From: Halanaerobiales bacterium
GTDB lineage: Bacteria > Bacillota > Halanaerobiia > Halanaerobiales > Halanaerobiaceae
DNA length: 64,000 bases
Assembly (NCBI GenBank): GCA_016278485.1
Contig: JADQBT010000010.1
Coordinates: 186,001 to 250,000 of the forward strand
Direction: 5' to 3'
Program-made: the position numbers and the translations under genes
Shown: piece by piece, positions 9,803-47,134 of the stretch
How the letters are laid out: each line of letters opens with the position of its first letter
Position numbering within the stretch: position 1 is the first letter of the stretch
Notes under the pieces: generated by a model
What the model was told of the DNA's origin: nothing
The model's database searches: none
Seen by the model: only the letters and a program-made list of their open reading frames with translations

Positions 9803-9817
9803 CAAGTTTAATTATAA

Positions 9818-10578: not shown

Positions 10579-12144
10579 CTAATGTTTAAAATGTCTTATT
10601 CCGGTAAAGACCATACTTATTCCTGACTCATCACAGGCTGCAATAACCTGATCATCTCGAATGGAACCTCCTGGTTGTACAATTGCTTTAATTCCTGCCT
10701 GGGCTGCTTTTTCGATTGCATCTGGAAATGGAAAAAATGCATCAGAGGCCACAACACCGCCTTCTGCTCTAATGCCTGCTTTGTGACTTGCAATTTCCAT
10801 TGCATCTACCCTACTCATCTGACCTGCCCCCACTCCAATCAACATTTTTTCTTTAGCCATTACAATTGCATTAGATTTTACATGCTTAACTGTTTTCCAG
10901 GCAAAGAGCAAGTCTGCCAACTCTTCTGGGGATGGTCTCCGATCAGTAACTACTTCCAGATCAAAAACATCTATATTTGCTAAGTCTTTGGACTGGACTA
11001 ATAAACCACCAGCTACCTTTTTAAAGTTATATTTAGCCTTTCCAGGTTTTTCAAATAAATCAGCAATTTCCAACAATCTTATATTTCGCCAGCGTTTTTT
11101 TAAAATATCCAGAGCCTGATTGTGAAAAGATGTTGCGATCACAACTTCAATAAACTTGTTATCAGCAACCATTTCCCGGGCAGTATTTTCATCTACCTCT
11201 CTATTGAAAGCAATGATACTACCAAATGCTGATAATGGATCTCCTGCATGTGCTCTTAGAAAAGCTTCTCTTAGATTATCTCCCTCTGCTAAACCACATG
11301 GGTTAGCGTGTTTCATAACTACCGCTGCAGGACGATCAGGGAAATCTTTAATGATTTCAAGCGCAGCATTTGCATCATTAATATTATTAAATGATAACTC
11401 CTTACCAGCTAGCTGTACCGCTGTTGTAATTGATGACTCTTTTTTACCTTTTTCCTGATAAAAGGCAGCCTTCTGATGTGGATTCTCACCATATCTTAAA
11501 TCCATTTTTTTCTCGTAATTTATTAAAAAAGTTTCTGGAAAACTTTGCTCTTGCTCAATATTTTCACTCAAATATTCTTGAATAATAAAATCATAATCTG
11601 CCGTATGCCGAAAAGCCTTGTAAGCAAGCCTTCTTTTAAACTCAGCACTCAATGCTTCCCCAGCTTTAACTTTTGTTGCCAGATCATTATAATCAGTTGG
11701 ATCTACCACTACTGCTACATCTTGATGGTTTTTTGCTGCAGCTCTAATCATGGTCGGCCCACCAATATCAATATTTTCCATTGCCTCTGCCCTGCTTACT
11801 CCTGCTTGCGCAATAGTCTCTGCAAATGGATATAAGTTAGCAATTACCAGGTCAATCGTCTTTATATCATACTTTTTGAGTTCTGCTTGGTGTTCTGGAT
11901 TTTTCCTTAAAGCCAATAACCCGGCCTGGATCACAGGATGAAGTGTTTTAACACTGCCATCCAACATTTCAGGATAACCTGTTAATTCACTGACTTTTGT
12001 GACTTGAAGACCAGCTTGACTAATTTTTTGAGCAGTTCCACCTGTCGAGATTATTTCCACACCTGCTGCTTCTAAACTTTTTGCCAATTCTATAATTCCT
12101 GTTTTATCTGATACACTTATAAGTGCTCTTTTAATTATTGTCAT
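10579..12144 (-). CDS. purH: Bifunctional AICAR transformylase / IMP cyclohydrolase
   Basis: Performs the last two steps of IMP synthesis, 521 aa. The N-terminal IMP cyclohydrolase (MGS-like) domain covers about 1-195 (ALISVSDKTGI, STGGTA, GRVKTLHP-type block DGSVKTLHP). The C-terminal AICAR transformylase domain contains VMKHANPCG with its catalytic Lys-His pair. AAAGGAG precedes the ATG. It is the last gene of the pur operon, 25 bp after purN. purD and purK are absent, so GAR synthesis and any N5-CAIR synthetase must be encoded elsewhere. Confidence 0.97.
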   Translation of the reverse strand: MTIIKRALISVSDKTGIIELAKSLEAAGVEIISTGGTAQKISQAGLQVTKVSELTGYPEMLDGSVKTLHPVIQAGLLALRKNPEHQAELKKYDIKTIDLVIANLYPFAETIAQAGVSRAEAMENIDIGGPTMIRAAAKNHQDVAVVVDPTDYNDLATKVKAGEALSAEFKRRLAYKAFRHTADYDFIIQEYLSENIEQEQSFPETFLINYEKKMDLRYGENPHQKAAFYQEKGKKESSITTAVQLAGKELSFNNINDANAALEIIKDFPDRPAAVVMKHANPCGLAEGDNLREAFLRAHAGDPLSAFGSIIAFNREVDENTAREMVADNKFIEVVIATSFHNQALDILKKRWRNIRLLEIADLFEKPGKAKYNFKKVAGGLLVQSKDLANIDVFDLEVVTDRRPSPEELADLLFAWKTVKHVKSNAIVMAKEKMLIGVGAGQMSRVDAMEIASHKAGIRAEGGVVASDAFFPFPDAIEKAAQAGIKAIVQPGGSIRDDQVIAACDESGISMVFTGIRHFKH

Positions 12145-21373: not shown

Positions 21374-22816
21374 CTATTTACTTGGTAATCTAAATAAAAT
21401 ATTCTTTAATTTATAAAAATATATAGAAACAATTAATAAATCTGCTGAACCACCTGGACTTAATTTATTTTCTTCCATATATTCTATCAACTTATTATAA
21501 TTGCATTTTCCTTTTTCAGTCTTAAATCCTCCCAAATCAAGAGTTTTTCGGGCTAAAGCTTTAATTTTTTTCAATTTGGAAATATTTCCTCTATATAAAA
21601 TATTAGTGTCATCTATTTTACTCATTAAAACTAATAATGTTTCAAGATAAGCTTTTTCCAAATTTTTATATTTATAAACCGCTTTCTTAAGTGCAGGTAA
21701 ACCATATTGAATAACTGAAGGGAAACCTGCTTCAGCTTCACCACGCGCACCATAAACTTTATAGCTCTTAAATACTTCTTCACCATGAGTATTTTCCAGT
21801 TTGCAAATTGACTTATTCTCTAATTCATTTTTTGTAATACCATTTAACCAATTAGCTGCAATCTCAGCAATATTATTGCTCAATAATTCCTCTCTTCCTT
21901 TTGGTTTAACAAAGAAATATCCTGTAGCAGCTGTAATAATTCCTAATGAAAAGATAACCCCCCGATGGGTGTTTACTCCTCCTGTAGATAAAAACATTTC
22001 TTCCTCTGCTTTTAGCCCTATCCCCTTCAATAATTCCATTGCCTGTTCGTTATTTGTATTGTTTTTAGCAATATACATTCCCTGTTTAGCAAACATCGAA
22101 AAAAAATTCTTTATTGCCTTTGCACTTTTTTTCATCATTAAATAATCCATGTCCTTATGGCTACCATTATTTAACTTATCAATTAACCCCGGTTTTGGAG
22201 ATGCTGATAATTCTTCCATTAATGCTTCATAAGCAATAATTTCAATTGATTTAATAAAATTTTCTTCAACAATTTTTTGCTTTTTTTGATAATTTTCCAT
22301 TTGCTTCTTCACATAATATTTCAACTCTTCATAAGAATGTTTCTGAAGTCTTCTACATAAATTTGCGTTAAGTTCACACAAATAGCATTTGCGCGCACTT
22401 AAACCTACTTTTTTTCTTGTAAGTGCTTCTCCCTTATAGTTGTATATATCTAAATCAAAAAATCGACCTAAATAATGATTTTCTTCAATATTAACTGTAA
22501 TTTTTTTCAAGTTTTGTGGATCTATTCTTGCTGCAATAAACTTTACAGGGCCGACTGAATTTTTGATCTTAATTTCCTTCAAACTAATAATATTATTTTT
22601 GAAAAAATTTATTTTTAATGCTCTAATTGATTCTTCAAATATTAATTTTACTATATTTCCATTTTTATTAGGACCAGGGTAATTAATTGTTATTGTTAAA
22701 AACGTAATATTACTTGCATCATATTTTGTTTCATTTAGCACATCATTGATAAATTTTTTTCTAAATATGATTCTTTCTTCTTTCTCTTTTAATAACTTCT
22801 GTATTATTTCATTCAT
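21374..22816 (-). CDS. citXG: CitX-CitG fusion: citrate lyase prosthetic-group synthesis and transfer
   Basis: A 480-aa fusion of two accessory enzymes. The N-terminal CitX domain (about 1-175; GRFFDLDIYN, RKVGLSARKCYLC, CRRLQKHSYEEL) transfers the phosphoribosyl-dephospho-CoA group to apo-CitD. The C-terminal CitG domain (about 190-480; SASPKPGLIDKLNNGSHKDMD, TGGVNTHRG, YGARGEAEAGFPS, LSPGGSADLL) makes the triphosphoribosyl-dephospho-CoA precursor. Last gene of the LacI operon, one base after citF. No terminator follows before the pur promoter. Confidence 0.92.
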   Translation of the reverse strand: MNEIIQKLLKEKEERIIFRKKFINDVLNETKYDASNITFLTITINYPGPNKNGNIVKLIFEESIRALKINFFKNNIISLKEIKIKNSVGPVKFIAARIDPQNLKKITVNIEENHYLGRFFDLDIYNYKGEALTRKKVGLSARKCYLCELNANLCRRLQKHSYEELKYYVKKQMENYQKKQKIVEENFIKSIEIIAYEALMEELSASPKPGLIDKLNNGSHKDMDYLMMKKSAKAIKNFFSMFAKQGMYIAKNNTNNEQAMELLKGIGLKAEEEMFLSTGGVNTHRGVIFSLGIITAATGYFFVKPKGREELLSNNIAEIAANWLNGITKNELENKSICKLENTHGEEVFKSYKVYGARGEAEAGFPSVIQYGLPALKKAVYKYKNLEKAYLETLLVLMSKIDDTNILYRGNISKLKKIKALARKTLDLGGFKTEKGKCNYNKLIEYMEENKLSPGGSADLLIVSIYFYKLKNILFRLPSK

Positions 22817-24277
22817 TTATAATTCTTCTCCATAAATTACATCTATTAAAGAACCATCACGATATTCAACAAGACCTACAACTTTACCAGTATGGTTAAC
22901 CTCTTCGGGTTTACCAGTTAGTTCAATGACTTCATCATAAATTCTATTAATTTTTTTCAAATTTATTTTTGAATTTGTTTTTAATTGATCTAACAAATCT
23001 TTTCGTGCTGGATTAACTGCTACACCTCTTTCAGTAACTAATATATCTATTGTATGGCCCGGAGTGACTATTGTTTTTACCTGCTCTGTAATACTTGGAA
23101 TTCTACCTCTGTATGATGGAGCTGTTACAATGCTTACTTTCGCTCCTGCTGCAGTATCACTATGTCCACCTATTGCTCCATAGAAATCACCATTAGCTGC
23201 TGTTAGAACATTTACATTAAAATTTAAATCGATTTCCAAAGCACTTAATACGACAAAATCAAGATAATTAACTAAAGCCCTTTTATTGAAAGGACTTGCA
23301 TATGTAACTGCATCTATTTCCTGATGATGAACATTATTTTTTAGGGATTCAATAGCATCTGGATGAAATGTTTGTGTATCATAAATTTTATTAAATAAAC
23401 CCTTTTTTAACATATTCACATGATCAGCTGTTACTCCACCAAGTAAAAAATTCCCCTTTATTTTTTTATTTATCATAAAATTTTCAATAAATGAATTAAC
23501 ACCTAAAGATATACTACCAGAACCTGTCTGCAATGAATAACCATCTTTAAAGTTTTCTAAACTTATAATAACCTCAGCTACTTGTCGTGCAATACTTAAG
23601 TCTCTCGTATTACTCTGTTGGCGTAATGAACCAGTAGCTATCTTATTTGACTCACCTATTTTATCAATTTGAACAATGTAATCAACATGTTTCTGTGGTA
23701 TAGAAACAATTTCTAAAGGTCTTGAAGCTATTTTTTCCACTACAGCAATTACTGTTTTAGCATAAGTTGCATCAACCTTTGCATATCCCAGTGAACCACA
23801 GATGGATTTACCTAAAACACCATTAATATTTCCAAATTGATCCGCAATAGAAGCTGCAATAAATGCTATATCAACTTTTATTCTACCGCTTGCAATTGCT
23901 GCCGCTCTACCACCATGAGAATAAAATACCACTGGATGATCCATTATACCTTTTTTAATTAATTTACCTAATTTTCCCCTCAAACCTGTTGTATAAATTT
24001 TATTTATTACACCATTTTTTATATGGTTTCCAAGTTTATGATGATTTCTTAAAGAAGTTACAACTAAAATTAAATCTTTTAATCCTTTTTCTGCTAGAAG
24101 ATCCATAACCATATTTAAAAGCAAATCACCATCACGATAATGATGGTGAAAAGATATTGTCATACCATCCTTTATTTCAGATCTTTCGATTGCTTCAGAG
24201 AGGTTTTTAAAAATAATTGACTCTTGGTTTTTTAGAATATCTTTTTTTTGGAAGAGATTATACCCATAATTATGCAT
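22817..24277 (-). CDS. citF: Citrate lyase alpha subunit (citrate:acyl-ACP transferase)
   Basis: Family I CoA-transferase-like subunit, 486 aa, that exchanges acetyl for citryl on the CitD prosthetic group. N-terminal block ITISFHHHYRDGD-like (TISFHHHYRDGD), plus YSHGGRAAAIASGRI and the C-terminal VTERGVAVNPAR. It is a little shorter than the roughly 500-510 aa enterobacterial proteins, with no obvious gap. Two bases separate it from citE. Confidence 0.94.
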   Translation of the reverse strand: MHNYGYNLFQKKDILKNQESIIFKNLSEAIERSEIKDGMTISFHHHYRDGDLLLNMVMDLLAEKGLKDLILVVTSLRNHHKLGNHIKNGVINKIYTTGLRGKLGKLIKKGIMDHPVVFYSHGGRAAAIASGRIKVDIAFIAASIADQFGNINGVLGKSICGSLGYAKVDATYAKTVIAVVEKIASRPLEIVSIPQKHVDYIVQIDKIGESNKIATGSLRQQSNTRDLSIARQVAEVIISLENFKDGYSLQTGSGSISLGVNSFIENFMINKKIKGNFLLGGVTADHVNMLKKGLFNKIYDTQTFHPDAIESLKNNVHHQEIDAVTYASPFNKRALVNYLDFVVLSALEIDLNFNVNVLTAANGDFYGAIGGHSDTAAGAKVSIVTAPSYRGRIPSITEQVKTIVTPGHTIDILVTERGVAVNPARKDLLDQLKTNSKINLKKINRIYDEVIELTGKPEEVNHTGKVVGLVEYRDGSLIDVIYGEEL

Positions 24278-24279: not shown

Positions 24280-25161
24280 TTACTTAATAACCTCCCTTTT
24301 TTCATATTTATTAATAATTTCTTTTGCCCTATTTAAAATTGGTAAATCAACCATTTTTCCTTTTACTGCAATTACACCTTTACCAAACTCTTCAGCTTGA
24401 CTAGCTTGCCTAACAATTTCCTTAGCATCTTCAATCTCTTCTTGCGATGGTGTGAAGACATGATTTACAATATCAACTTGCCGCGGATGAATTACTGCTT
24501 TGCCTGTAAATCCGAGTTCTTTACTTTGTAGTGTTTCTTTCTTTAAACCGTTCAAATCATTAAAATCACTAAAAACAGTATCTATTGCATTTATTTTATA
24601 TGCTGCTGCCACAAGAGCGATTTTGGATCTAGTTAAAAACAACTCTCTGCCTAAAGATGTTCTTTTTATTCCCATATCTGTTGTCAAATCTTCAGCTCCA
24701 AGTGTCAAGGCAGAAAGACGTTCAGAAGAAGCCACTATCTTTTCAAGATTGAGGACACCTTTTGCTGTCTCTATCATAGCCATGATTTCAATAAAACCTG
24801 GTTGCAAATTAGCTTTGCGTTCTAATTTAGTAATTAACTTGTCTATTTTTATAATTTGTTCTTTAGTTTCTATTTTTGGAATTCTAATTATATCTGGACC
24901 AATGGGGACAATTGACTTCAAATCTTTTAAGCCAAATTTAGAATCCAAAGAATTTATTCGAACGGCAATTTCAGTATTATTAAAATTTAAAGAATTTAAA
25001 GCTTCAATCAATAGCTCCCGTGCAGCATCTTTTTCAGAAATAGCTATTGAATCCTCTAAATCAAATAAGATAGTGTCAGCTCCATAAATAAAAGCATCTT
25101 GTATCATAGCAGGGTTATTTGCAGGTATATAGAGCATTGATCTTCTTAACTTGTTATTCAT
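24280..25161 (-). CDS. citE: Citrate lyase beta subunit (citryl-ACP lyase)
   Basis: HpcH/HpaI aldolase-type TIM barrel, 293 aa, splitting citryl-ACP into oxaloacetate and acetyl-ACP. Motifs: RRSMLYIPANNPAM at the N-terminus, ILFDLEDSIA with Mg ligands, IEIMAMIETAKGVLN and GAEDLTTDMG, and FTGKAVIHPRQ near the end. The ATG overlaps the end of citD by 8 bp. Malyl-CoA lyase-type CitE homologues look similar, but the neighbours fix the assignment. Confidence 0.94.
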   Translation of the reverse strand: MNNKLRRSMLYIPANNPAMIQDAFIYGADTILFDLEDSIAISEKDAARELLIEALNSLNFNNTEIAVRINSLDSKFGLKDLKSIVPIGPDIIRIPKIETKEQIIKIDKLITKLERKANLQPGFIEIMAMIETAKGVLNLEKIVASSERLSALTLGAEDLTTDMGIKRTSLGRELFLTRSKIALVAAAYKINAIDTVFSDFNDLNGLKKETLQSKELGFTGKAVIHPRQVDIVNHVFTPSQEEIEDAKEIVRQASQAEEFGKGVIAVKGKMVDLPILNRAKEIINKYEKREVIK

Positions 25162-25438
25162 TTAGAGAACACTCCTTAAGTGCCCGCAATATTGCTGTTT
25201 TAGTTCTTGCTCTAATTGCATAATCGAGTGCACCTTTATCATTAGCCATTACCTTTATATTTTCAATTTCAAACTCTTTAATTGTATCTCTAATTACTTT
25301 TTTAATCTTGCTTCCAAATAATTCTTCTACATCGCTTACTAGTTCAATTATAATTCCTTTTTCTTTAGCCGGACTTACAGTAATCATAATATCAGATGAT
25401 TCCATTGAGCCTGAACTTGCTGTTTTATTTATCTTCAT
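25154..25438 (-). CDS. citD: Citrate lyase acyl carrier protein (gamma subunit)
   Basis: 94-aa carrier protein. Numbered from the ATG at 25438 (GGAG 8 nt upstream), Ser14 in SMESSDIMITV sits where the phosphoribosyl-dephospho-CoA is attached in characterised CitD proteins. The frame extends to a GTG at 25447, which is less likely because the ribosome site would be lost. Confidence 0.93.
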   Translation of the reverse strand: MKINKTASSGSMESSDIMITVSPAKEKGIIIELVSDVEELFGSKIKKVIRDTIKEFEIENIKVMANDKGALDYAIRARTKTAILRALKECSLNE

Positions 25439-26465
25439 TCTGATCACTCCAAAACTTTAAATAATCCCAAGTTGTTCTGGATACTAAGCTCTTAATTTGA
25501 TCTAATTTATCTTCTTTTAATAACTTTCTTACTCTTGAGGCACTTATAGGAATACCTTTCATTTCAATTCGTTGAATTTCAATCAGATCGACTCCATATT
25601 GAGGTAAAATATTTTTTAACTGTTGATTATAAATTGCAGTGACAACTGAATTTGGTTCAGTTCCTACATATCTTCGCTTAATACCCAAACTTCTAGCAAA
25701 ATATTTACCAAATAAATGAGCGTCCAATTGAGCATACAACCTTATGCTTTCTTTCTCTTGATCTTCAGATAAAAAATATTTTGGAAATGTAGAATATGAA
25801 AGTATATAATTACCACTTGGTACTACAATAACATTGTCTTTACCGGCAACCACTTTTTGAAGTAAGTTGCGCCTCTCTTTTGCAGAAAATAAAGATTTAT
25901 CCTCAGAAAGTATAAAAATTATTACTAATTGATTATTTCTACTTGCTTTTTCTATTAAATAACTATGACCTTTAGTTACAGGATTACAGTTCATTACTAA
26001 CGAAGCAATTTTTCCTTGTTCATACTTTTTCTTTGCATTAAATGATGTAATCTTGCTATTTATTATGTTTATGTAATCTTCTATTTTAGATATACCATCT
26101 TCCAACAAAACTGGATATTTACCAACACCAACTAATTCATTAAATCCTAGATTTTCTAATAAAGGAACCTGATTTCGATGTGCATAAACAAAATAATTTT
26201 TTCTTTCACGCCTTATCAGAAATGCCTTTAAACGTGAGATAACAATACTCATTAATCCTTGTTTTTGATAATTTGGATCAACTGCAAGACATTTTATAAT
26301 ATTTCCATCTAATGAACCAGTAGCAACTAGTTTATTTTGTTCTTTAACTAGTAAAGTAATATCTAAATTTTTTTCTGGTTTGAGTCCAACTTTTCTTAAT
26401 AAAGCTTTCCAACTGTAATCATTATAATTAGGTTTAATAAAATTAATCTTAATATTCCACAACAT
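25425..26465 (-). CDS. citC: [Citrate (pro-3S)-lyase] ligase
   Basis: Acetylates the CitD prosthetic group with ATP and acetate to activate the lyase, 346 aa. It has an N-terminal GNAT-like domain (about 1-130; CLAVDPNYQKQGLMSIVI) and a C-terminal nucleotidyltransferase domain with NPVTKGHSYLIEKA (HxGH-type motif) and ISASRVRKLLKE. The ATG at 26465 has AGGTGG 5 nt upstream; the upstream GTG lies inside that site. First of the five cit genes, 22 bp after an ARH gene. Confidence 0.93.
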   Translation of the reverse strand: MLWNIKINFIKPNYNDYSWKALLRKVGLKPEKNLDITLLVKEQNKLVATGSLDGNIIKCLAVDPNYQKQGLMSIVISRLKAFLIRRERKNYFVYAHRNQVPLLENLGFNELVGVGKYPVLLEDGISKIEDYINIINSKITSFNAKKKYEQGKIASLVMNCNPVTKGHSYLIEKASRNNQLVIIFILSEDKSLFSAKERRNLLQKVVAGKDNVIVVPSGNYILSYSTFPKYFLSEDQEKESIRLYAQLDAHLFGKYFARSLGIKRRYVGTEPNSVVTAIYNQQLKNILPQYGVDLIEIQRIEMKGIPISASRVRKLLKEDKLDQIKSLVSRTTWDYLKFWSDQNEDK

Positions 26466-26487
26466 TTTAACCACCTGATTTTGTTAT

Positions 26488-27468
26488 CTAGATTAAAACA
26501 GATAAGTCTTTTGCTACTTCAATTAAATCTAAACTAGACGTAAATTCCAAACATGTACCAGTTGGAAACCTTGTTTTTTCCTTCCATCTTTCCGGTATTT
26601 TGTCCGCACCATTAATGGCTCCATTTAGAGCGCCCACTACTGCACCAATTGTATCTGCATCACGACCAAAATTACCCGCATATATTACACCTTTTTTAAA
26701 GTTTCCTTTCGACAATTTGAATAAAGCAAAAGCCTGAGAAATAGCTTCTGGTACTGCAGCCTTGTATTTAGTCCAAAGTTCTGTATGTAAAGGTGTCCAA
26801 GCACTTTCAAGAGAATCTGACTCTTCAACAATATTAAGAGCTTTTTCAAATGTATATCTAAACCAAGAATCCTCTGGAATAACCTGGCGTGCTGCATCAA
26901 TTATTTCTTCAACACTACCATTCACCATTGCAATAGATACTGCTGCCGCTACTGCCTGTGCACCCCAAATACCATCTCTCCAATGACTGATGGATGCATC
27001 TATCTTTGCCAGTTCAGCAGCTCTTGCCGGGTCTCCAGCACAAATAATTCCAACTGGTGCGATTCTCATAGCGGCACCATCACTCATATAATGTGAATTA
27101 TATTTTCCTGTCAAAGGAGGAGTTAAACCTCTTTTTAAATTCATAGCTGCTTCAATTTCACTAGCTCCTCCCCTATAATATTCATCCTGTGGAACTACAT
27201 ATTCTAGCCAAGCTTTTTTCACAGCCTCATTAGTAAGCAAACCCTTATTTTCAATTAATGTTAATGCTGTTAACAAACTAAATTCTGTGTCATCTGTACT
27301 CCAAGAATCATTTTCATCAAAATCCATTGTTATTCCGTATCTCTTATGATTTTTATCTGTACGAGAAGCATCTCCAAAAGAATCTCCAATTGCTTGCCCA
27401 ATTAAAGCTCCCAAAGATTTATCCAATTTAAGCTCTTTATTATTTTTAATATCTTCTTGAGTTATCAA
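26488..27468 (-). CDS. ADP-ribosylglycohydrolase family protein, short type (ARH copy 4 of operon)
   Basis: 326-aa protein of the ADP-ribosylglycohydrolase/DraG fold, a dinuclear Mg enzyme family that hydrolyses N- or O-glycosidic bonds at the ribosyl anomeric carbon. Metal motifs look intact: GQAIGDSFGD (N-terminus), STDDTE (Asp59, Asp60) and FGRDADTIGAVVGA (Asp270, Asp272). In an operon with a sugar importer and ribokinase, a small-molecule ribosyl hydrolase is more likely than a protein de-ADP-ribosylase; this is inference. E. coli YegU, beside a nucleoside transporter and sugar kinase, is a comparable case. Confidence 0.85.
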   Translation of the reverse strand: MITQEDIKNNKELKLDKSLGALIGQAIGDSFGDASRTDKNHKRYGITMDFDENDSWSTDDTEFSLLTALTLIENKGLLTNEAVKKAWLEYVVPQDEYYRGGASEIEAAMNLKRGLTPPLTGKYNSHYMSDGAAMRIAPVGIICAGDPARAAELAKIDASISHWRDGIWGAQAVAAAVSIAMVNGSVEEIIDAARQVIPEDSWFRYTFEKALNIVEESDSLESAWTPLHTELWTKYKAAVPEAISQAFALFKLSKGNFKKGVIYAGNFGRDADTIGAVVGALNGAINGADKIPERWKEKTRFPTGTCLEFTSSLDLIEVAKDLSVLI

Positions 27469-27492
27469 TTATTACACCTCATTTAAATGTCT

Positions 27493-28815
27493 TTAAATTA
27501 AGTTAATAGTTCTTTGCGCCAGTTCATCTATGTTCATGTTATCAAAACCTTTCAAACTACTTCTAACTCGATTTTGTAATGGGTCTATCCATTTTTTATT
27601 TATTTTGTCATAACCTAACAAAGTACCCATTATGGCACCTACAGTAGCACCATTACAATCGGTGTCCCATCCCCCCATAACTACATTAGTTATCGCTTTA
27701 CTATAATCATTATTTGAATAAATAATAGCTGCTACTAGTAGTGCTGCATTATTAATCGTATGTACCCAATTATAATCTCCATACTTATTATGCAATAAGT
27801 TAACGGCCTCTTCCCAGATAGAAGTCTTATTGGGTAAATCCAAAGAAAACCTGATTGCTTCTGCAAGTTTGCTTTCTTGCGGAATTCTTGATAAGCCTAT
27901 TTTTATAGCCTCTAAGGGATCATTTACCACAAAAGAGGAAGCTAAAACGGCGGCCACAAATAATGCACCATAAACTCCATTATTGCGATGTGTAAAAATT
28001 GCATCACGCCAAGCTAGTTCAACAGCCCTATCAGGATCTCCAGGTGACACCCATCCCCAAAGATCTGCTCTAATTTGTGCCCCAATCCATTCTTTATAAG
28101 GATTATAATATTCTCCAGCTTTTTCAACTGGTACAGAATTAAGAACATTTAAATAAGCCACTCTTTCAGCAGTAAAAAGCGACAAAACTGGCAAGCTCTC
28201 TAACCAACTTGTAGCTAACTCATCTAGGGTAAAATCAAACCCATATTTTTCGATAATATATAAGTTTAACATAGTGAAATTTATATCGTCATCTTCTGGC
28301 ATAGCAATTATATTTTCCTTTAAACTTTCTTTACCTCCATATTTATTCCAAGGATATTTTTTTAAAAATTTTGACGGTACATTTCTACCTGTAAAATAAT
28401 CATTCAAAGGCCAACAATTATTATAATGAAGTAATTCATTGATGGCCTCCCGATTCATTTTTTCTACTGGTTTACCAAGTAAACAACCGGCGATTCTTCC
28501 ATACCATCCTCCAAATATTTTGTTCTTTAATTCATCCTTATTTATGCTTTGATTTGGTGGTACATATGACCCTGTTATTTTTTTGAGCTTAGCTAATCCT
28601 ACAGATGCTTCATAAGTAAAATCCTTTTTTATATTTATTTCATTTAATTCACTTAGAATTTCAAAGGCTTTTCTTCTTAACACAATTAAGTCTTTAGTTG
28701 AACTCTTAAATAACTCCCATTTATTTTCAAATAATTCAACATCTACTCCTAAATTTTTTAACTCTTTAAAAGCATAATCAATTTTATCTTCAGGATTAAC
28801 ATAAGTTACCTTCAC
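27493..28815 (-). CDS. ADP-ribosylglycohydrolase family protein, long type (ARH copy 3)
   Basis: 440 aa with a roughly 95-residue N-terminal extension before the ARH core (KIFGGWYGRIAGCLLGKPVE at about 99-118). The acidic motif is EDDDINFT (174-181) and the C-terminal motif GGWDTDCNGATVGA (Asp384, Asp386). The Cys-Asn after DTD and the extension are shared with the distant ARH gene at 56667, so the two form a subfamily. The GTG start at 28815 has GGAGG 8 nt upstream; the upstream ATG codons would lie inside the previous gene. The extension resembles no domain I can name. Confidence 0.83.
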   Translation of the reverse strand: MKVTYVNPEDKIDYAFKELKNLGVDVELFENKWELFKSSTKDLIVLRRKAFEILSELNEINIKKDFTYEASVGLAKLKKITGSYVPPNQSINKDELKNKIFGGWYGRIAGCLLGKPVEKMNREAINELLHYNNCWPLNDYFTGRNVPSKFLKKYPWNKYGGKESLKENIIAMPEDDDINFTMLNLYIIEKYGFDFTLDELATSWLESLPVLSLFTAERVAYLNVLNSVPVEKAGEYYNPYKEWIGAQIRADLWGWVSPGDPDRAVELAWRDAIFTHRNNGVYGALFVAAVLASSFVVNDPLEAIKIGLSRIPQESKLAEAIRFSLDLPNKTSIWEEAVNLLHNKYGDYNWVHTINNAALLVAAIIYSNNDYSKAITNVVMGGWDTDCNGATVGAIMGTLLGYDKINKKWIDPLQNRVRSSLKGFDNMNIDELAQRTINLI

Positions 28816-29887
28816 TAGATTCACCTCCATTTTGAAAGGTGGTGTAATTATCTTCACCTAAAGAAGCAAGGTTGTTGATTAATTTGATATAATTTATATT
28901 TTTTAAATTAGGTATAGCAATACCCTTTAATTTTTCAACTTTGTTATACCAAATATTTGGAATTTCATTATCTCCCAGATATGCACCTAGAAGAGCTCCT
29001 ACCATTGCTGGAACAGAATCTGCAGTTCTTGCAAGTGAAGCGGAAGCAAATAAGGTCTCTGAAAAATTTTCAGAACCAGCTTTAAATAAAGCTAGCGCAA
29101 TAGGTAATGTTTCTGGTGCCGATGTTCCATAACTATATATATTTTCTATTAAATCATCTGCTAAAATAGGTACTAAAGAAAAAACATCAACATTAGATGC
29201 AATTTCCAAAGCTTTTATAGTATTTCGATGTAACCAACTTAACTCATCTATTTCTTTGAGCCCTACACTTATAGCTTCATCAATAGTTCCATCATCCACT
29301 AAAACTGAGATAATCGCTGCCAATGCTTTTGCTGCTTCCAATCCATCAAATGAATTTGTTACTTCTACTTCTTTTTGACAAGCTAAAGCAGCCTTTATGG
29401 GTTTTCCAGCTAATAATACACCATAAGGAATTGCGCGTGGACAACCAGAATCATCAAAATAATGTGGGTTGTCTTTACCTGTTATGGGTGGTACTTTCCC
29501 ACTTTTTAGATTTTTTATGGCAGATCTAATACTTATACTTCCTTTAATGTTATCTTCATTTTTGACTAATTGTCTCCAATTGTCTAAGATAATATTTTTG
29601 TCAGGTTGCTTTTGACATGAAATTATTAATTGTGCACTAAAACTTGCCCATTCAGTATCATCTGCTGGACCAATTTTAAAAGAGGACTGAGATCTATTTA
29701 GTGAAAAAGGAACCGACGGTCTAATAATTTTATGAATTTCTGCTTCATCTTCAATCTCTCTACGTAGTCTCCTTGTCCAATCTGGTAATAAGTGTCCTCT
29801 CTGAAAAAGAGCTGGCCAACTTATTGCATCCCCAACAGCTAAACCCAACATACAGCCTAGTGCTTTACTTCTATTATAGACCATCAT
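28796..29887 (-). CDS. ADP-ribosylglycohydrolase family protein with degenerate metal site (ARH copy 2)
   Basis: 363-aa short-type ARH protein. The N-terminal motifs are present (MLGLAVGDAISWPA; GPADDTEW, Asp76-Asp77), but the C-terminal motif reads LARTADSVPAMVGA: Thr288 (codon 29024-29026) replaces the first metal-binding Asp, while Asp290 remains. It also has an unusual insertion rich in Arg and Glu (about 35-65). It may be catalytically weak, have altered metal use, or act as a partner of its intact neighbours. It overlaps the preceding ARH gene by 14 bp with a good AAAGGGGGA ribosome site. Confidence 0.8.
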   Translation of the reverse strand: MMVYNRSKALGCMLGLAVGDAISWPALFQRGHLLPDWTRRLRREIEDEAEIHKIIRPSVPFSLNRSQSSFKIGPADDTEWASFSAQLIISCQKQPDKNIILDNWRQLVKNEDNIKGSISIRSAIKNLKSGKVPPITGKDNPHYFDDSGCPRAIPYGVLLAGKPIKAALACQKEVEVTNSFDGLEAAKALAAIISVLVDDGTIDEAISVGLKEIDELSWLHRNTIKALEIASNVDVFSLVPILADDLIENIYSYGTSAPETLPIALALFKAGSENFSETLFASASLARTADSVPAMVGALLGAYLGDNEIPNIWYNKVEKLKGIAIPNLKNINYIKLINNLASLGEDNYTTFQNGGESSEGNLC

Positions 29888-30857
29888 TATCCCCCTTTCG
29901 CTCCATTAATTTTTCTGTTATATCACCGATACTTAACCCCTTTACAGTCTTAATACAACTTCCCCGTGCAGGTGTAATTTTATCCTTCCAAGCAACAGGA
30001 ATTTTCTCTATTCCTTGAAAAGCACCAGCTATAGCACCAGTAATAGCGGCGTTAGTATCAGTATCACGGCCAATATTTACGCCTCCTAATACCGAATCAA
30101 CAAATGTGCATCTGGTAGATGCTAAGATTCCAAATGATAATCCCAAAGCTTCTGGAGCTAAATCTGCCCATGGATAACAATCGTATACTAATTCTTCGTA
30201 AAGTACAGGAAGTGCTTCTTTCATATTGCTAAATTGTTCACCAATTGAAATACCTTTTCTGACAGAACGATAAGTCCAGGAATCTTTTGAAATATGTTTT
30301 AGTGACTCAGTTAATATTTCTTGATAATCATTTGTTTTCATAGCTATAGAAATTGCTGCGGCTACAAGCCTTCCCCCCATAATCCCTTCTCCTGAGTGAC
30401 TTACTTGACCGTCAATTTCAGCAATTTCAGCAGCCCTATCTGGATGACCCCAAAAATATATTCCAAATGGTGCTACTCTCATTGCTAACCCATCACTCCA
30501 ACTGTGGATATGCTTGCCAGAAGATGGTGGACGCATGCCAGATCTTAAATTCTCTATTGTGGCCATTTCACTAAAACCTGCACCACTGAATCCTTCAGTT
30601 TGAACTGCAATTTTATCTAACCATTCTTTAGCAATTTTTTCTGATGTAATTTCTTTACCATATTTTAATAACAACCGTGCATTAAATAGTGCGTACTCTG
30701 TATCATCACTTACTGCCGCATCTTTTGAAATAAAGTCAGTAATATAACCATACTTATCTTGGATTTCATTATAAGTATTTCCTTCAACAGGCTGGCCGAG
30801 GGCATCGCCCACGGCCAATCCTATAAAAGCACCTAATGCTTTATTTATTTCATCCAT
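29874..30857 (-). CDS. ADP-ribosylglycohydrolase family protein, short type (ARH copy 1)
   Basis: 327 aa with the full ARH motif set: FIGLAVGDALGQPVEG near the N-terminus, VSDDTEY (Asp51, Asp52) and NIGRDTDTNAAITGA (Asp265, Asp267). It is the first of four ARH genes, 19 bp after the solute-binding-protein gene. The family fold is secure. The substrate is unknown, but context suggests the ribosyl compound brought in by the adjacent importer. Confidence 0.86.
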   Translation of the reverse strand: MDEINKALGAFIGLAVGDALGQPVEGNTYNEIQDKYGYITDFISKDAAVSDDTEYALFNARLLLKYGKEITSEKIAKEWLDKIAVQTEGFSGAGFSEMATIENLRSGMRPPSSGKHIHSWSDGLAMRVAPFGIYFWGHPDRAAEIAEIDGQVSHSGEGIMGGRLVAAAISIAMKTNDYQEILTESLKHISKDSWTYRSVRKGISIGEQFSNMKEALPVLYEELVYDCYPWADLAPEALGLSFGILASTRCTFVDSVLGGVNIGRDTDTNAAITGAIAGAFQGIEKIPVAWKDKITPARGSCIKTVKGLSIGDITEKLMERKGDNDGL

Positions 30858-30876: not shown

Positions 30877-32184
30877 TTAATCATAATAGCGCTCTAGTAC
30901 CCTATTTCCATCTCTCTCTAACTGTTCTGAAGCTCTTTTCAAATCAATTTCATCTTTAAGATATAGCTGGAATATTGGATTTCCTACTCTATTTTTCCAT
31001 TCTGTAAAACCAGGAATACTCTGCCATGGTCCTGCAATAAGATTTTCTGCTGACTTCAACGCAACATCCCATCCGTTTCCGGCATTAGTAAATTCAGGTA
31101 ATTCCATGGTAGATTTTCTAGTCGGCAACATCCAATCACCTTTAGCCAATCTTGCCATATTTTTAGTGCTTAAGAAGAATTCAATAAACTGCATTGCTTC
31201 TGGCTTATTTTTTGAATCAGATGGTATACTTAATGTCTGAGTTCCAACGCCTTGATCTTGAGTATCTGCTTTAATAGGTGGTATTACACCCCAATTGAAA
31301 TCATCTGAAGCATTAACTACTACTTGCTGGCGAGCCCAAACTCCAACATTAGGAATCATAGCATATTTTCCTGCTAAAAATCCTGGTATCATACTACTTC
31401 CAGACTGTCCAATACCACTAATAGGTGCTGTCTTTTCATCATATAACATTGCCTTATGATGAATCATTAATCTTTTTTCTGGCTGATTGACTTTTACTAC
31501 ATAATTTCCAGAATCATTTTTTTCAAAAAACTTTCCGCCAAATCCAACTGACAGACGTAAGAACTTTTTAGCAGGACTTTTTAAGCCTAAACCTGCTCCC
31601 CACTGATCTATATTTCCATCACCGTTAGTATCTTTAGTTAATCGTACAGCAGCTTCTCTAAGTTCTCCCCAACTCCAAGGATCTGCAGGAGTTGCTGGCT
31701 GAATCCCCGCCTCTTTAAATAAATCTTTATTATACAGTGTGATTTGGGATTCCCACAAGAACGGTACACCGTAGACACCTTCTCCATTTGTTTTAGTGGT
31801 TTTCCATGCCTCTTCAACAATATCATTCTTTAGATCATCTGACATGTACTTGCTTAAATCAGTTAAGTATCCTTTCTGAGCGAAACCAACAATTTCAGCT
31901 GATTCAAAGTGAAATACATCAGGTACGGTTTCTGTTTCAAAGGCTGTAATCATATAATCATAGATAGAACCCCATGTACCTTGTATATATTCCACTTGAA
32001 CGCCAGGATGTTCCTCATTCCATTCTTTTACAATTTCTTTATTTGCTTCGATAGATTGCTTCTGCCACGCCAAACTTACAAACTTAAGTTTAACAGGCTC
32101 TTCAGCACTCACAACACCAGCCGCCAATAATCCAAACAACAAACTCAAAAACACCATCATTGATAAAACTTTTCTCATTAACAT
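30877..32184 (-). CDS. ABC sugar-type solute-binding protein (CUT1)
   Basis: Extracellular solute-binding protein family 1, 435 aa. A Sec signal peptide ends near GVVSA-EEP with no lipobox cysteine, so the mature protein is probably free in a periplasm. Family features: NEEHPGVQVEYI, VPDVFHFES, the GVPFLWES segment and PEAMQFIEFFLS. It follows the two permease genes, a less usual order for CUT1 operons. The ligand is unknown; the neighbours argue for a ribosyl or riboside compound rather than an oligosaccharide. Confidence 0.87.
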   Translation of the reverse strand: MLMRKVLSMMVFLSLLFGLLAAGVVSAEEPVKLKFVSLAWQKQSIEANKEIVKEWNEEHPGVQVEYIQGTWGSIYDYMITAFETETVPDVFHFESAEIVGFAQKGYLTDLSKYMSDDLKNDIVEEAWKTTKTNGEGVYGVPFLWESQITLYNKDLFKEAGIQPATPADPWSWGELREAAVRLTKDTNGDGNIDQWGAGLGLKSPAKKFLRLSVGFGGKFFEKNDSGNYVVKVNQPEKRLMIHHKAMLYDEKTAPISGIGQSGSSMIPGFLAGKYAMIPNVGVWARQQVVVNASDDFNWGVIPPIKADTQDQGVGTQTLSIPSDSKNKPEAMQFIEFFLSTKNMARLAKGDWMLPTRKSTMELPEFTNAGNGWDVALKSAENLIAGPWQSIPGFTEWKNRVGNPIFQLYLKDEIDLKRASEQLERDGNRVLERYYD

Positions 32185-32200: not shown

Positions 32201-33037
32201 TTAGTATTTTACTGCTCCTTTGGTCAAACCTGATACAAGCCACTTTTGTAAGAAACCAAACAAAATTAAAGCTGGGATCGTAGCAATAAATGAAGCTGCT
32301 GCCAAAGGACCAAGTCTCACTACCCCTTCCATACCAGTAAATCTAGCTAGTTTAACTGGTAAAGTAAGAAGTTCGGGAGACTTAATTAAAACCAAAGCAA
32401 AGAAGAACTCATTCCATGCTGAAATAAATGCAAATAACGCGGTTGCAGATATTCCAGGTAATAAAAGAGGGAGTACAATTCTCCAAATTATTTGAAAACG
32501 ACTAGCACCATCAACTGCTGCTGCTTCCTCTAACTCTATTGGAATACCTTGCACATAACCTTGTAACATCATTAATACAAATGGTAAGGTCCATACAATG
32601 TATAATAAAGATAAACCTAAATGTGAATCTATCATTCCCAAGCTTTTTAGAATAAGGAAAAGGGGAATTATAATTAGTATAGCTGGAAAAAGTTGTGAAA
32701 CCAGCACCCAACCTATTACACCTTTATTAAGTTTTGTTCTATATCTTCCTAATGCATAAGCTGCTGGAACTGCAATCACAATTACGCCAACAGCAGCTAT
32801 TAGGCCAACTTTAGTACTATTTAAAACACTCTCAAATATTTGCTGTTCTTGAAACGCATTTATGTAATGTTGAAACACAATTTTCTTCGGAAACATAGTA
32901 GGAACCAATGACCTTATTTCAGATATTGGTTTTAATGAAATAGAAAACATCCAGAAAAGCGGAAAAGCTAAAAATAATAAATATAGTAGCAACAAAAAGT
33001 GTCTTAATATTGAACCAATTATATTCCTTGAATTCAT
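32201..33037 (-). CDS. ABC sugar permease, MalG-like
   Basis: Inner-membrane permease, 278 aa, six membrane segments, with the EAA loop (ELEEAAAVDGASRFQIIWRI) that contacts the ATPase. The ATG at 33037 is 8 nt after AAAGGTGG; two in-frame GTG codons upstream lie within that site. No ATPase gene is present in the operon, so a shared MsmX-type ATPase is expected. Confidence 0.9.
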   Translation of the reverse strand: MNSRNIIGSILRHFLLLLYLLFLAFPLFWMFSISLKPISEIRSLVPTMFPKKIVFQHYINAFQEQQIFESVLNSTKVGLIAAVGVIVIAVPAAYALGRYRTKLNKGVIGWVLVSQLFPAILIIIPLFLILKSLGMIDSHLGLSLLYIVWTLPFVLMMLQGYVQGIPIELEEAAAVDGASRFQIIWRIVLPLLLPGISATALFAFISAWNEFFFALVLIKSPELLTLPVKLARFTGMEGVVRLGPLAAASFIATIPALILFGFLQKWLVSGLTKGAVKY

Positions 33038-33054
33038 TAAAATCACCACCTTTA

Positions 33055-33936
33055 TTAATAATTTTTCATTCTATTACGCAAGTATACAAACATAAATACT
33101 GCGACAACTAAAACCATTACATTACCTAACGCAGCAGCATAACCTAGGTTCCCATATCTAAAACCTTCTTCGTAAGCTAGCAGGGATGGTATTCTTGTTA
33201 AACCTGCAGGCCCACCTTGGGTCAATACATATACAAGACCAAAAGAGTTAAAATTCCATATAAATCGCAATATAGTTATTGCTGTAATAATTGGTGCTAA
33301 TAAAGGCAATGTGATATAACGAAATGCTTGTAATTTACTAGTACCGTCTAAACTTCCAGCTTCATATAAATCTTCTGATATTGACTGTAACCCAGCCAAT
33401 ATAGTAATAGCTGCTTGAGGTAAGCCTCCCCATATACCTACAATAATTATGGAAGGAAGCACATAATCAAAACTAAACAAAAAATCAATTGGCTGATCAA
33501 TAATATTTAACTTCATTAAAAAATAATTAATAGCTCCTGTATCCGGATGATACATAAACTTCCACATAATCCCTCTAATAACTGGAGGCATTGCCCAAGG
33601 AATTAAAACCAAAACTCTTGCCCACGACCTAAATAAAATTTTACCATTTAACAATAAAGCTAATCCCAGGCCCAATAAAACTTGCCCTCCCGTTACTGCT
33701 ATTGTCCAAAGAAAACCCACTTTAAATGATTGCCAAAAATAACTATCCTGCATCATATATACATAATTTTCTATACCGTTAAAGTTAGCTTCAGTACCTA
33801 GGGTATAGTCTGTAAAACCCAAAAATATACCTCTCAAAAGTGGAAAAACAGAAAGAATCAATACAGGAATAAACGCAGGAAGAAGCAATTTAATTTGGTC
33901 AATTGTTTTATCGCCTACCATCCTATTTTCATACAT
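33055..33936 (-). CDS. ABC sugar permease, MalF-like
   Basis: Inner-membrane permease, 293 aa, about six segments, with the EAA-type loop DLYEAGSLDGTSKLQAFRYI. It pairs with the downstream MalG-like permease. The start has GAGGTG 5 nt upstream. It lies 2 bp after the ribokinase gene. Confidence 0.9.
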   Translation of the reverse strand: MYENRMVGDKTIDQIKLLLPAFIPVLILSVFPLLRGIFLGFTDYTLGTEANFNGIENYVYMMQDSYFWQSFKVGFLWTIAVTGGQVLLGLGLALLLNGKILFRSWARVLVLIPWAMPPVIRGIMWKFMYHPDTGAINYFLMKLNIIDQPIDFLFSFDYVLPSIIIVGIWGGLPQAAITILAGLQSISEDLYEAGSLDGTSKLQAFRYITLPLLAPIITAITILRFIWNFNSFGLVYVLTQGGPAGLTRIPSLLAYEEGFRYGNLGYAAALGNVMVLVVAVFMFVYLRNRMKNY

Positions 33937-33938: not shown

Positions 33939-34871
33939 TTACACCTCAAATTTTAAGTTAATAACATATTTTTTAGAAAATTCTTTTATATCTTTTAAGT
34001 TTGGAATAGAGCTTTGTGCACCAAATTTAGTCACAGAAAATGCTGCAGCCAAATTAGCAAATAATATTGCATTATTTAATTCATAACCTCTAGATAAAGC
34101 ACTACAAAAAGCTCCAACAAATGTATCCCCAGCTGCAGTCGAATCTACAACTTTGACTTTTATTGCTTTATAACCTTCTACTTTATTTGAACTATAATAT
34201 GTAACACCACCTGCGCCTTTCGTTAAAAGTATGTTTTTAACTCCTTTATTTAATAACCACTCTACTTGTTTATCTTCTGTTTCCAAATAACTTGGTGTTA
34301 AAAAATCGATTTCTAATTGATTTGGAACAATATAATCTATCTTTTCATATAAATGATAAGGTAATTTAACTGCAGGAGCTGGATCAAGGATAATTGTTAA
34401 ATTATACTGTACTCCTAATTCAATAGCCCTTATTGTTGTTTCAAGAGGTATTTCAAGTTGCAACAACAGATAATCCGATTTTTTAAATAACTCTTTTGTG
34501 TTATTAATGATTTCTGGAGTTAGTTCGCTATTTGCCCCACTATTTATAATTATTCTATTTTCACCATCATCTTCAACTAAAATAATGGCTACTCCTGTAC
34601 CAACTTTTTTTGTTTCTACAACGTCTAAATTTACACCATTTTTTAATAATTGCTCAGATAAAAGTTTACCATATTCATCTTTACCACATGCTCCAATAAA
34701 ACTTACATTACTATCAAGTTTAGCAGCCGCAACGGCCTGATTTGCCCCTTTGCCTCCAGGATATTTATTAAATGACTTTCCTAATAATGTTTCACCTGCT
34801 AAAGGCATCCGTTCTGTTTCAACCACAAGATCCATATTCATGCTACCAACTACAAGTATGTTATTATTCAT
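33939..34871 (-). CDS. rbsK: Ribokinase (PfkB family), first copy
   Basis: PfkB carbohydrate kinase, 310 aa, closest in pattern to ribokinase. N-terminal signature MNMDLVVETERMPLAGET and GGKGANQAVAAA; C-terminal signature DSTAAGDTFVGAF with the catalytic Asp. It would phosphorylate ribose released by the ARH enzymes to ribose 5-phosphate, one step from PRPP. The ATG at 34871 has GGAGG 6 nt upstream. A second ribokinase-like gene lies at 50328; the two proteins differ clearly, so they are not a recent duplication. Confidence 0.93.
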   Translation of the reverse strand: MNNNILVVGSMNMDLVVETERMPLAGETLLGKSFNKYPGGKGANQAVAAAKLDSNVSFIGACGKDEYGKLLSEQLLKNGVNLDVVETKKVGTGVAIILVEDDGENRIIINSGANSELTPEIINNTKELFKKSDYLLLQLEIPLETTIRAIELGVQYNLTIILDPAPAVKLPYHLYEKIDYIVPNQLEIDFLTPSYLETEDKQVEWLLNKGVKNILLTKGAGGVTYYSSNKVEGYKAIKVKVVDSTAAGDTFVGAFCSALSRGYELNNAILFANLAAAFSVTKFGAQSSIPNLKDIKEFSKKYVINLKFEV

Positions 34872-34887
34872 CACAAACCTCCAAACC

Positions 34888-35892
34888 TTAAAATCTCTTT
34901 ACTGATTTTCTAATTATTAGATCTGCTTTTAATATTTTGTCACTCTTTAAAATTTTAGACTTCTCTTCAATCATCTGCACCAATAAATCAACTGCCATTT
35001 CACCTAAAACATATTTAGGCTGTTTAATCGTAGTTAATTCCGGTCTGATAACGGAAGCTACATCGATATCATCATGGCCAACCACAGAAATATCTTCTGG
35101 TATCTGATAATCAGCAGAAAAAGCAGCACTGTAAGCGCCAATTGCCATTAAATCATTCGCTGCAAATACTGCAGTCGGTTTTTTAGGTAATTGTAATAAA
35201 TAATTCATTGCCTGCCAGCCACTATCCTTACTGTAATCACCATTTATTATTAATTTATCATTAACCTTTAAATCAGCCTTTTCTAAAGCTTGCTGATAAC
35301 CCGCCAGACGGTCGCGAGCGGTTGCCGTATGAAGATCACCCGTGATATGAGCAATCCTTTGGTGACCTGCATTAATTAAATATTCGACTATTTCAAATGA
35401 TGATTTTTTATTATCTATCATTACAGCTGGATAATCACTACCTGGTACAGAGCGGTCAATCTGAACTACAGGAAAATTTTTCTTTTGTAGCTTTTGCAAA
35501 AGTTCTCCATTACCCAGTGATAAAGAAACTATCAAACCATCAACCTGTTTACTACATAAAAGGTCAATTGCTTTTTTTTCATTTTCAGGATGATTATCTG
35601 TATTATAAAATATAACAGAATAACCTAATTTTTGTGCTTTATCTTCAATGGCACGGGCCACCTCTGGAAAAAACGGGTTACTAATATCTGGTATAATCAG
35701 ACCCAGAGTAAAGGTTCGCTGCATAACCAATCCTCTAGCAACTCCATTGGGATTATAGCCTAATTCATCAATAATTTCTAGAATTTTATCTCTTGTTTTC
35801 GGACTTACATCTGGCTTATTATTCAGCACACGAGACACAGTAGTGACTGAAACACCAGCTTGTTTTGCGACATCTTTAATAGTAACTGCCAT
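34888..35892 (-). CDS. LacI family transcriptional regulator
   Basis: 334 aa. Helix-turn-helix at the N-terminus (TIKDVAKQAGVSVTTVSRVL), hinge helix, then a periplasmic-binding-protein-like effector domain (about 60-330). The closest pattern is ribose/purine-type regulators (RbsR-like). First gene of the 14-gene operon and probably autoregulatory through the palindrome just upstream. The inducer is not readable from sequence. Confidence 0.93.
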   Translation of the reverse strand: MAVTIKDVAKQAGVSVTTVSRVLNNKPDVSPKTRDKILEIIDELGYNPNGVARGLVMQRTFTLGLIIPDISNPFFPEVARAIEDKAQKLGYSVIFYNTDNHPENEKKAIDLLCSKQVDGLIVSLSLGNGELLQKLQKKNFPVVQIDRSVPGSDYPAVMIDNKKSSFEIVEYLINAGHQRIAHITGDLHTATARDRLAGYQQALEKADLKVNDKLIINGDYSKDSGWQAMNYLLQLPKKPTAVFAANDLMAIGAYSAAFSADYQIPEDISVVGHDDIDVASVIRPELTTIKQPKYVLGEMAVDLLVQMIEEKSKILKSDKILKADLIIRKSVKRF

Positions 35893-35919: not shown

Positions 35920-35939
35920 AATCGTTGCCGGAAACGTTT
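35920..35939. promoter_or_regulatory. LacI-type operator
   Basis: A 20-bp near-palindrome with centre CCGG: AATCGTTGCC on one side and GGAAACGTTT on the other, two mismatched positions. Its CG-centred symmetry is typical of LacI-family operators. It begins 11 bp downstream of the -10 box and so covers the transcription start. Confidence 0.75.
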
Positions 35940-35950
35940 TCAGTAATTAT

Positions 35951-35979: not shown

Positions 35980-35988
35980 GCTTTAAAT

Positions 35989-36039
35989 CAAAAAAAATGC
36001 TGTTTGTTGTAGAAATCATAAATTCTTACAACAAACAGC
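35989..36039 (-). terminator. Intrinsic terminator of the pyr operon
   Basis: A strong stem: GCTGTTTGTTGT (35999-36010) pairs with ACAACAAACAGC (36028-36039), extended inward by GAA/TTC. On the minus strand a run of eight or nine Ts follows. It separates pyrR from the LacI promoter. The plus-strand side is also T-rich, so it could act in both directions. Confidence 0.92.
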
Positions 36040-36113
36040 TCTGTTTTATTTTTTTCTTTATTAAATTGTTATAGGTCTTCTCTATTCAATTAACTATTTT
36101 TGGATAATATTCT

Positions 36114-46047: not shown

Positions 46048-46075
46048 AATTATCCCCCATTTCTTTTAACGAATC

Positions 46076-46576: not shown

Positions 46577-46593
46577 AATGAATCCTCCTAAAA

Positions 46594-47133: not shown

Positions 47134-47134
47134 A

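Follow-up and report, generated by a model that had tools for sequence, protein, structure and literature searches.

A conserved array of ADP-ribosylhydrolase-fold genes in a sugar-type operon of a Halanaerobiales bacterium: a candidate pathway for a ribosyl conjugate of a citramalate- or citrate-type acid

Sets of genes that combine a member of the ADP-ribosylhydrolase (ARH) family with a ribokinase and a transporter are already known. The yegTUV genes of E. coli encode a transporter, the ARH YegU and the PfkB-family kinase YegV (PMC10819704), and staphylococci carry an ARH-permease-ribokinase set (PMC3637587). Here we describe a stretch of 64,000 nucleotides from Halanaerobiales bacterium (GCA_016278485.1, contig JADQBT010000010.1, positions 186,001 to 250,000), referred to hereafter as the window, in which four adjacent ARH/DraG-fold genes on the minus strand, designated A, B, C and D, lie within an operon of 14 genes. 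The order is a LacI-family regulator, a ribokinase, two CUT1 permeases, a solute-binding protein, A, B, C, D, citC, citD, citE, citF and citXG, with gaps of no more than 24 bp. The operon holds the ARH, PfkB kinase and importer of a riboside set like that of yegTUV, together with a complete citrate-lyase set (CitF, CitE, CitD, CitC, CitX and CitG). We consider it fairly probable that the operon, under LacI control, serves the breakdown of a ribosyl-type glycoside that is taken up by the cell and has a citramalate- or citrate-like aglycone. The original prediction, made from the sequence of the window, ended the run of genes at D and missed the end of the operon: citC starts 13 bp downstream, and the citrate-lyase half is the main clue to the aglycone.

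Four divergent ARH genes in a conserved array

ARH A (29874-30857) encodes a short-form protein of 327 aa with a complete catalytic metal motif and is probably the main hydrolase. ARH B (28796-29887; 363 aa) has a degenerate metal site and is a probable pseudoenzyme partner of A. ARH C (27493-28815; 440 aa, GTG start) is a long form with EWIGAQIR and DTDCN motifs and a helical N-terminal extension, and ARH D (26488-27468; 326 aa) is a short form that keeps all Asp ligands and has no equivalent of Glu41 of ARH3. The A and B genes overlap by 14 bp and the B and C genes by 20 bp, while C and D are separated by 24 bp. Scores with the PF03747 profile were 205 (A), 130 (B), 169 (C) and 187 bits (D), relative to a gathering cut-off of 26.2, and pairwise identities were 37% (A-D), 31% (B-D), 28% (A-B), 26% (A-C), 25% (C-D) and 18% (B-C). 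The open reading frames, profile scores and identities bear out the earlier description of four divergent ARH genes placed head to tail, three short and one long. The extension of about 95 residues and the DTDCN motif described for the long form are present in C, where the extension is N-terminal and the motif reads GWDTDCNG. To that description we add the degenerate C-terminal metal motif of B, which is ARTADS in place of GRDADT. The predicted structures of B (predicted local distance difference test score 79.7, predicted template modelling score 0.84) and C (76.5 and 0.77) both have the all-helical ARH fold, and their closest PDB structures are ARH3, MJ1187 and DraG (ARH3 and MJ1187 for B). 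The genome contains exactly five ARH genes, every one inside the window. The fifth, E (56667-58052; 461 aa), is a long form in a second ARH operon (55757-62632), where it is preceded by a PnrA/BMP-type nucleoside ATP-binding cassette (ABC) transporter and followed by a GntR regulator.

Membership of PF03747, the ARH fold and the retention of every catalytic residue in A are consistent with enzymes that act on ADP-ribosylated proteins or nucleic acids, like DraG, ARH1 and ARH3, in which case the location in a sugar operon would be incidental. Likewise, the probable orthologues SCO2028-2031 of Streptomyces coelicolor, listed as uncharacterized DraG/ARH homologues, are recorded as putative ADP-ribosylhydrolases (PMC9411070, PMC5087735). 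However, A to D scored at most 71.5 bits with the DraG equivalog TIGR02662 (cut-off 337) and at most 53.9 bits with the Tri1 equivalog NF041672 (cut-off 490). The GNG(S/A)xMR segment of DraG-like rows is altered to SDGxAMR in A and D, FDD in B, EWIGAxIR in C and NCGAAMY in X, a fifth ARH type that stands in the array where D is absent. The conserved partners are an importer, a ribokinase and lyases, and neither SCO2028 nor SCO2030 acted on U-alpha-ADPr, although this is a single substrate (PMC13036486). A search for DraT gave no match, but its control failed as well, so this is evidence neither way on protein ADP-ribosylation. Taken together, a role on ADP-ribosylated macromolecules appears improbable. 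Cleavage of a small-molecule glycoside, which the original prediction had preferred, is favored by the importer, the ribokinase, the LacI operator and the recruited lyases described below.

In both a quick tree of 116 rows and a careful tree of 61 rows, A, B, C, D and X each formed one clade, with support from 95/89 to 100/100 in the careful tree (A 95/89, B 100/99, D 100/99). A, B and D together were separate from all other ARHs with a support of 96 in the quick tree, and 100/100 against the C rows in the careful tree. C fell within a widespread long-form clade whose other members are mostly single copies, often with PfkB, LacI or ABC genes. The approximately unbiased (AU) test rejected topologies in which the four window copies were held together (p 2e-47) or A, B and D alone were held together (p 1e-7). 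Median ratios of nonsynonymous to synonymous substitution rates (dN/dS) among Streptomyces orthologues were 0.09 for A, 0.14 for B, 0.20 for X and 0.32 for C, indicating purifying selection. The trees and the AU test rule out a recent tandem duplication, as had been predicted, and each copy has its own clade with a conserved operon position. The opposite outcome, in which the four copies would be mutual nearest relatives evolving under relaxed selection, is contradicted by the AU test and by the purifying selection seen in Streptomyces for the orthologues of A, B and C. One part of the earlier picture changes: A, B and D share an ancient clade, as old relatives of one another, and only C comes from another, long-form clade.

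The A-B-(X or D)-C array was also found in another halanaerobial family, in two orders of the sampled phylum that are only distantly related to it and in nine Actinomycetota, usually with a ribokinase and often with an importer. A complete genome from the other family of the same order (G017) has the identical order of 14 genes (identities of 65% for A, 50% for B, 57% for C and 71% for D). In G257, which belongs to a distant order within the sampled phylum, the genes run PfkB-LacI-ABC-A-B-X-C-citF-citE/D; in G358 the order is LacI-ABC-D-B-A, with AtuA and DUF4387 genes next. Outside that phylum, an Aquiluna metagenome-assembled genome has LacI-ABC-A-B-X-PfkB and Nonomuraea gerenzanensis has LacI-ABC-A-B-X-C-PfkB; the single record returned by a plasmid search, N. 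gerenzanensis 'plasmid I', is chromosome-sized (11.85 Mb). Seven large genomes with gltB and trp/lgt neighbors, recognized by N-terminal sequences and termed streptomycete-like here, all carry A-B-X-C followed by a family III coenzyme A (CoA) transferase and a CitE-like lyase, with a ribokinase between C and the transferase in 5/7. A contig scan with B alone as the query returned one locus. Among 229 genomes, A was never seen without B. The array is an old, conserved cassette that spans at least two phyla and is present in salt-loving anaerobes, distant bacteria and streptomycetes.

Other ARH loci were noted in the sampled genomes. At L037 (G035:C110) and L076 (G233:C4), AtuA and DUF4387 genes have ARH genes (700-703 aa) and ABC genes as neighbors, a further variant of the array with X- or D-type ARHs. 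At L043 (G015:C3, 5423-12977) one operon contains LacI, a CUT1 ABC transporter, a C-type ARH, PfkB and a putative nucleoside hydrolase assigned by its N-terminal sequence. L038 (G035:C211, 2950-8002) has an ARH, PfkB and a gene with an AllA-like (ureidoglycolate lyase) N-terminus in an Rbs-type ABC operon, and a riboside of a purine breakdown product is a possible target. An ARH gene at L041 (G032:C78, 251-5496) adjoins genes that by their N-terminal sequences resemble an enolase-family sugar-acid dehydratase, a KDPG-type aldolase and a sugar-acid kinase, which suggests that some ARHs may act on sugar-acid glycosides.

ARH B and the metal sites of the other copies

In ARH3, Asp314 holds MgB and its loss lowers ADP-ribose binding 44-fold (PMC8141533), and the mechanism proposed for this enzyme centers on Glu41 (PMC8319183). 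The column of Asp314 (Asp243 in DraG) is Asp in all 104 rows other than B, but is V, T, A, S or R in all 12 B sequences. The flap Glu (Glu41 in ARH3, Glu28 in DraG) is absent from 12/12 B and 4/4 D sequences, and the B proteins of G257 and Aquiluna have also lost the N-terminal DD. By comparison, A kept the Glu and all Asp ligands in 12/12 orthologues. The residues of the two-metal site (the Glu flap, (T)DD and DxD(T/S/C)) are complete in A and X, and C has Asp replacing the Thr ligand. Judged by these residues, A, C and X could be catalytically competent ARHs and B probably could not.

The original prediction allowed each ARH its own substrate or, alternatively, a hetero-oligomer. Because the catalytic residues are lost in all 12 genomes, for B at least a role as a probable non-catalytic partner of A, kept under purifying selection, fits better. 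It might still be argued that all four proteins are active on different substrates, with B using a different catalytic arrangement: B is strongly conserved (dN/dS 0.14), retains invariant residues of its own (DNPH, DD and R), and the site of the ARH3 D314A variant stays nearly native (PMC8141533). However, every B lacks the Glu as well as the first C-terminal Asp, two have also lost the N-terminal DD, and A and B occurred together in every case seen. Activity of all four copies is accordingly rather unlikely in our estimate.

Lyase genes, the acid aglycone and the proposed pathway

Among 398 genomes of the phylum, citF scored over its cut-off in 29. Three of the four genomes with a strong match to B have citF directly downstream of the array, two with the whole cit set after D and one straight after C. 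The presence of citF in three of four such genomes has P = 0.0013 at the level of the genome alone; its adjacency to the array makes chance far less likely than this value. In the CitEF tree the window grouped with G017 (100/100), but the sister of G257 was G277 (100/100), so the array acquired citrate-lyase-type genes on two or more occasions. One shared origin of CitEF in the ARH operons is ruled out, since supported branches force two changes. The citrate-lyase-type genes of G277 lie with a methylaspartate ammonia-lyase and a class I fumarase-type hydratase, which by gene content is the citramalate-lyase setting of the methylaspartate pathway. Methylaspartate operons with glutamate mutase parts, methylaspartate ammonia-lyase and citrate-lyase-type genes were observed at L171 (G188, 858-7699) and L169 (G277, 2725-10776), and these lyases are probably citramalate lyases that the citF model names citrate lyase. 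The CitE equivalog cut-off was considered as a means to tell citrate from citramalate lyase and was unhelpful, because CitE beside several other citF genes also falls below it; it says little about the substrate.

In the streptomycete-like cassettes the ribokinase, where present, exceeds the TIGR02152 cut-off. The place of the citrate-lyase genes is taken there by the family III CoA transferase and the CitE-like protein; the latter matches the model of the itaconate-degradation lyase RipC best, with a score under the cut-off of that model. This pair could be a free-CoA equivalent of the acyl-carrier reaction of citrate lyase. AtuA and DUF4387 genes stand by ARH genes in G358, G233 and G035. 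AtuA is annotated as an acetate lyase of terpene degradation (PMC4847356) and adjoins methylaspartate ammonia-lyase in Prevotella (PMC10434189). Because the family is common (49 of 189 genomes), this pair was demoted from a strong third lyase to a lead. Lyases were thus recruited independently: citrate/citramalate-lyase genes at least twice, the CoA transferase and CitE-like pair in streptomycetes, and perhaps AtuA/DUF4387 elsewhere. Together these systems suggest that the aglycone is an acid of the citramalate, citrate or malate type.

Two other explanations bear on the lyase genes. If the four ARHs served a mix of ordinary modified nucleosides, the citrate lyase would be a chance neighbor in the operon. 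Sets of ARH, ribokinase and nucleoside transporter do recur, as in yegTUV (PMC10819704) and the staphylococcal operon (PMC3637587); ARH E stands behind a PnrA-type transporter, and the C-type ARH at L043 stands with PfkB and a gene with a nucleoside-hydrolase-like N-terminus. Chance, however, does not account for at least two recruitments of citrate-lyase-type genes and a CoA transferase and CitE-like pair in 7/7 streptomycete-like genomes, and none of A, B, D and X turned up in the simple nucleoside operons. We regard this explanation as unlikely, if less so than the others considered here. Alternatively, the ARHs might act on the prosthetic group of citrate lyase, 2'-(5''-phosphoribosyl)-3'-dephospho-CoA, in order to edit or recycle it; the ribosyl-ribose linkage of this group is similar to the one in poly(ADP-ribose), and citC, citD and citXG are within the same operon. 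This highly improbable reading was rejected because citXG and citD are missing from the vicinity of the arrays in streptomycetes, G358, Nonomuraea and Aquiluna, and the cassette also holds an importer and a ribokinase.

We therefore return to the catabolism of an imported glycoside, for which the remaining genes of the operon, all on the minus strand, would supply the following steps in this order. A LacI-type operator-like sequence, TGAAAACGTTTCCG (about 35927-35940), lies directly upstream of the LacI-family gene (34888-35892; nearest models RbsR/PurR, under their cut-offs), which would provide regulated uptake. CG-centered palindromes also precede the homologous cassettes of Aquiluna (AGGAAACGTTTCCT) and G257 (TGGAAACGTTTGCA). 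The conjugate would be imported by the CUT1 transporter, made up of the MalF-type permease permF (33055-33936), the MalG-type permease permG (32201-33049) and the solute-binding protein (30877-32184; PF01547). permF is conserved across homologous cassettes (80% identity in G017, 55-58% in G257 and G358, and 50% in Nonomuraea). The ARH-fold enzymes would then split glycosidic bonds to a furanose, most likely ribose, using a two-Mg2+ site, with A as the probable core hydrolase, B shaping the active site or the complex without catalysis of its own, and C and D (X in other lineages) taking further linkages, anomers or intermediates. Ribose is the expected product because the PfkB-family kinase (33939-34874) scored 345.9 bits with the ribokinase model TIGR02152 (cut-off 299.65), which is also exceeded in Streptomyces; its nearest solved structures are ribokinases. 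The kinase would convert ribose to ribose 5-phosphate, and the released acid, a 2-hydroxy acid with a CH2-COOH arm, would be cleaved to acetate and a 2-oxo acid by the citrate/citramalate-lyase-type enzyme. The genes for this enzyme are citC (25425-26474; TIGR00124, 280 bits, cut-off 262.1), encoding the [citrate (pro-3S)-lyase] ligase; citD (25160-25438), the acyl-carrier subunit, 58% identical to the G017 copy; citE (24280-25161; TIGR01588, 340 bits, under the citrate-lyase equivalog cut-off of 443.4), the lyase subunit; citF (22817-24277; TIGR01584, 594.5 bits, cut-off 501.45), the transferase subunit and the sole citF found in the genome; and the citX-citG fusion (21374-22816; TIGR03125, 273.6 bits, cut-off 272.3; TIGR03124, 125.1 bits, cut-off 105.25) for synthesis and attachment of the prosthetic group.

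Several points weigh against this pathway. We know of no natural conjugate of ribose with citramalate or citrate that would explain the operon. The closest solved relatives of the solute-binding protein, all distant, bind arabino-, malto- and other oligosaccharides, so the glycoside may be larger and its sugar may not be ribose. The streptomycete clusters have no importer, and the substrate there may be intracellular. Neither a citrate lyase nor a ribokinase adjoins the array of G358, where the function of AtuA/DUF4387 is only annotated, and the Nonomuraea and Aquiluna arrays have no lyase alongside. Finally, D has all Asp ligands without the Glu in 4/4 sequences, although the alignment around this position is uncertain (short loop). 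With these points in mind we put forward only tentatively the broader proposal that two or more phyla share a pathway for an acid of the citramalate/citrate type conjugated to ribose, that the catalytic ARH in it forms an obligate hetero-oligomer with a degenerate paralogue, and that the acid is handled by independently recruited lyases. If so, such a conjugate is apparently common enough for distant bacteria to keep a route of 7-14 genes.

Promoter and terminator scans did no better than on shuffled sequence. Between upstream pyr-type genes and the LacI gene lies a strong inverted repeat with a run of T behind it (GCTGTTTGTTGTA...TACAACAAACAGC-T8, about 35983-36045), which is likely the terminator that divides the two operons. 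A neighboring ribose-type operon at 45373-55546 contains RbsB/A/C-like ABC genes, a DeoC-like aldolase, a second PfkB kinase, an FGGY kinase, an OMPdecase/HUMPS-family (HPS-like) protein, an aldo/keto reductase, a SIS protein, and RbsD-like and transaldolase-like proteins; by its genes it looks like an uncharacterized pentose or nucleoside route.

Comparison with Streptomyces coelicolor and other described systems

In the searchable literature, which leaves most subscription journals outside its coverage, we found no account of several arrayed ARHs as one pathway, of a link between such an array and citrate-lyase-type enzymes or of a degenerate B partner. A close counterpart is SCO2028-2031 of S. 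coelicolor, which very probably corresponds to the A-B-X-C array of the seven streptomycete-like genomes beside the trp/gltB region. This assignment draws on the proximity of trpCXBA (SCO2038 is trpX; PMC5036795) and on the published list of DraG homologues (PMC9411070). Relative to the array in the window, X replaces D and no importer is alongside. The literature searched held no description of SCO2028-2031 as one unit or of a tie to ribokinase, CoA-transferase or CitE-like genes. The reputation of streptomycetes for a lively ADP-ribosylation metabolism rests partly on their many ARH/DraG-fold proteins, usually annotated as protein ADP-ribosylhydrolases; four of the eight ARHs of S. coelicolor are probably members of a small-molecule pathway instead. 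The conserved cassette offers a testable route to new ARH chemistry and to a probable ARH pseudoenzyme partner.

The gene set for citrate or citramalate lyase (CitDEF with CitC and CitXG) is complete in the window, and CitF, CitC, CitX and CitG exceed curated cut-offs. It differs from the described enzymes in that CitE is under its cut-off, no citrate transporter was recognized in the operon and the set is joined to a glycoside operon. DraG, ARH1 and ARH3 share the fold with the window ARHs and the two-metal motif with A, C and X, whereas the window proteins fall under the equivalog cut-offs, have an altered GNGxxMR segment and stand in a sugar-catabolic context. B, without its catalytic residues, resembles human ARH2, which is apparently inactive (PMC9738213). 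The E. coli yegTUV genes likewise combine an ARH with a PfkB kinase and an importer, and their regulator (YegW/GgaR) is also of a sugar type, but they have a single ARH and no lyase, and are proposed to be linked to ADP-glucose and glycogen (PMC10819704).

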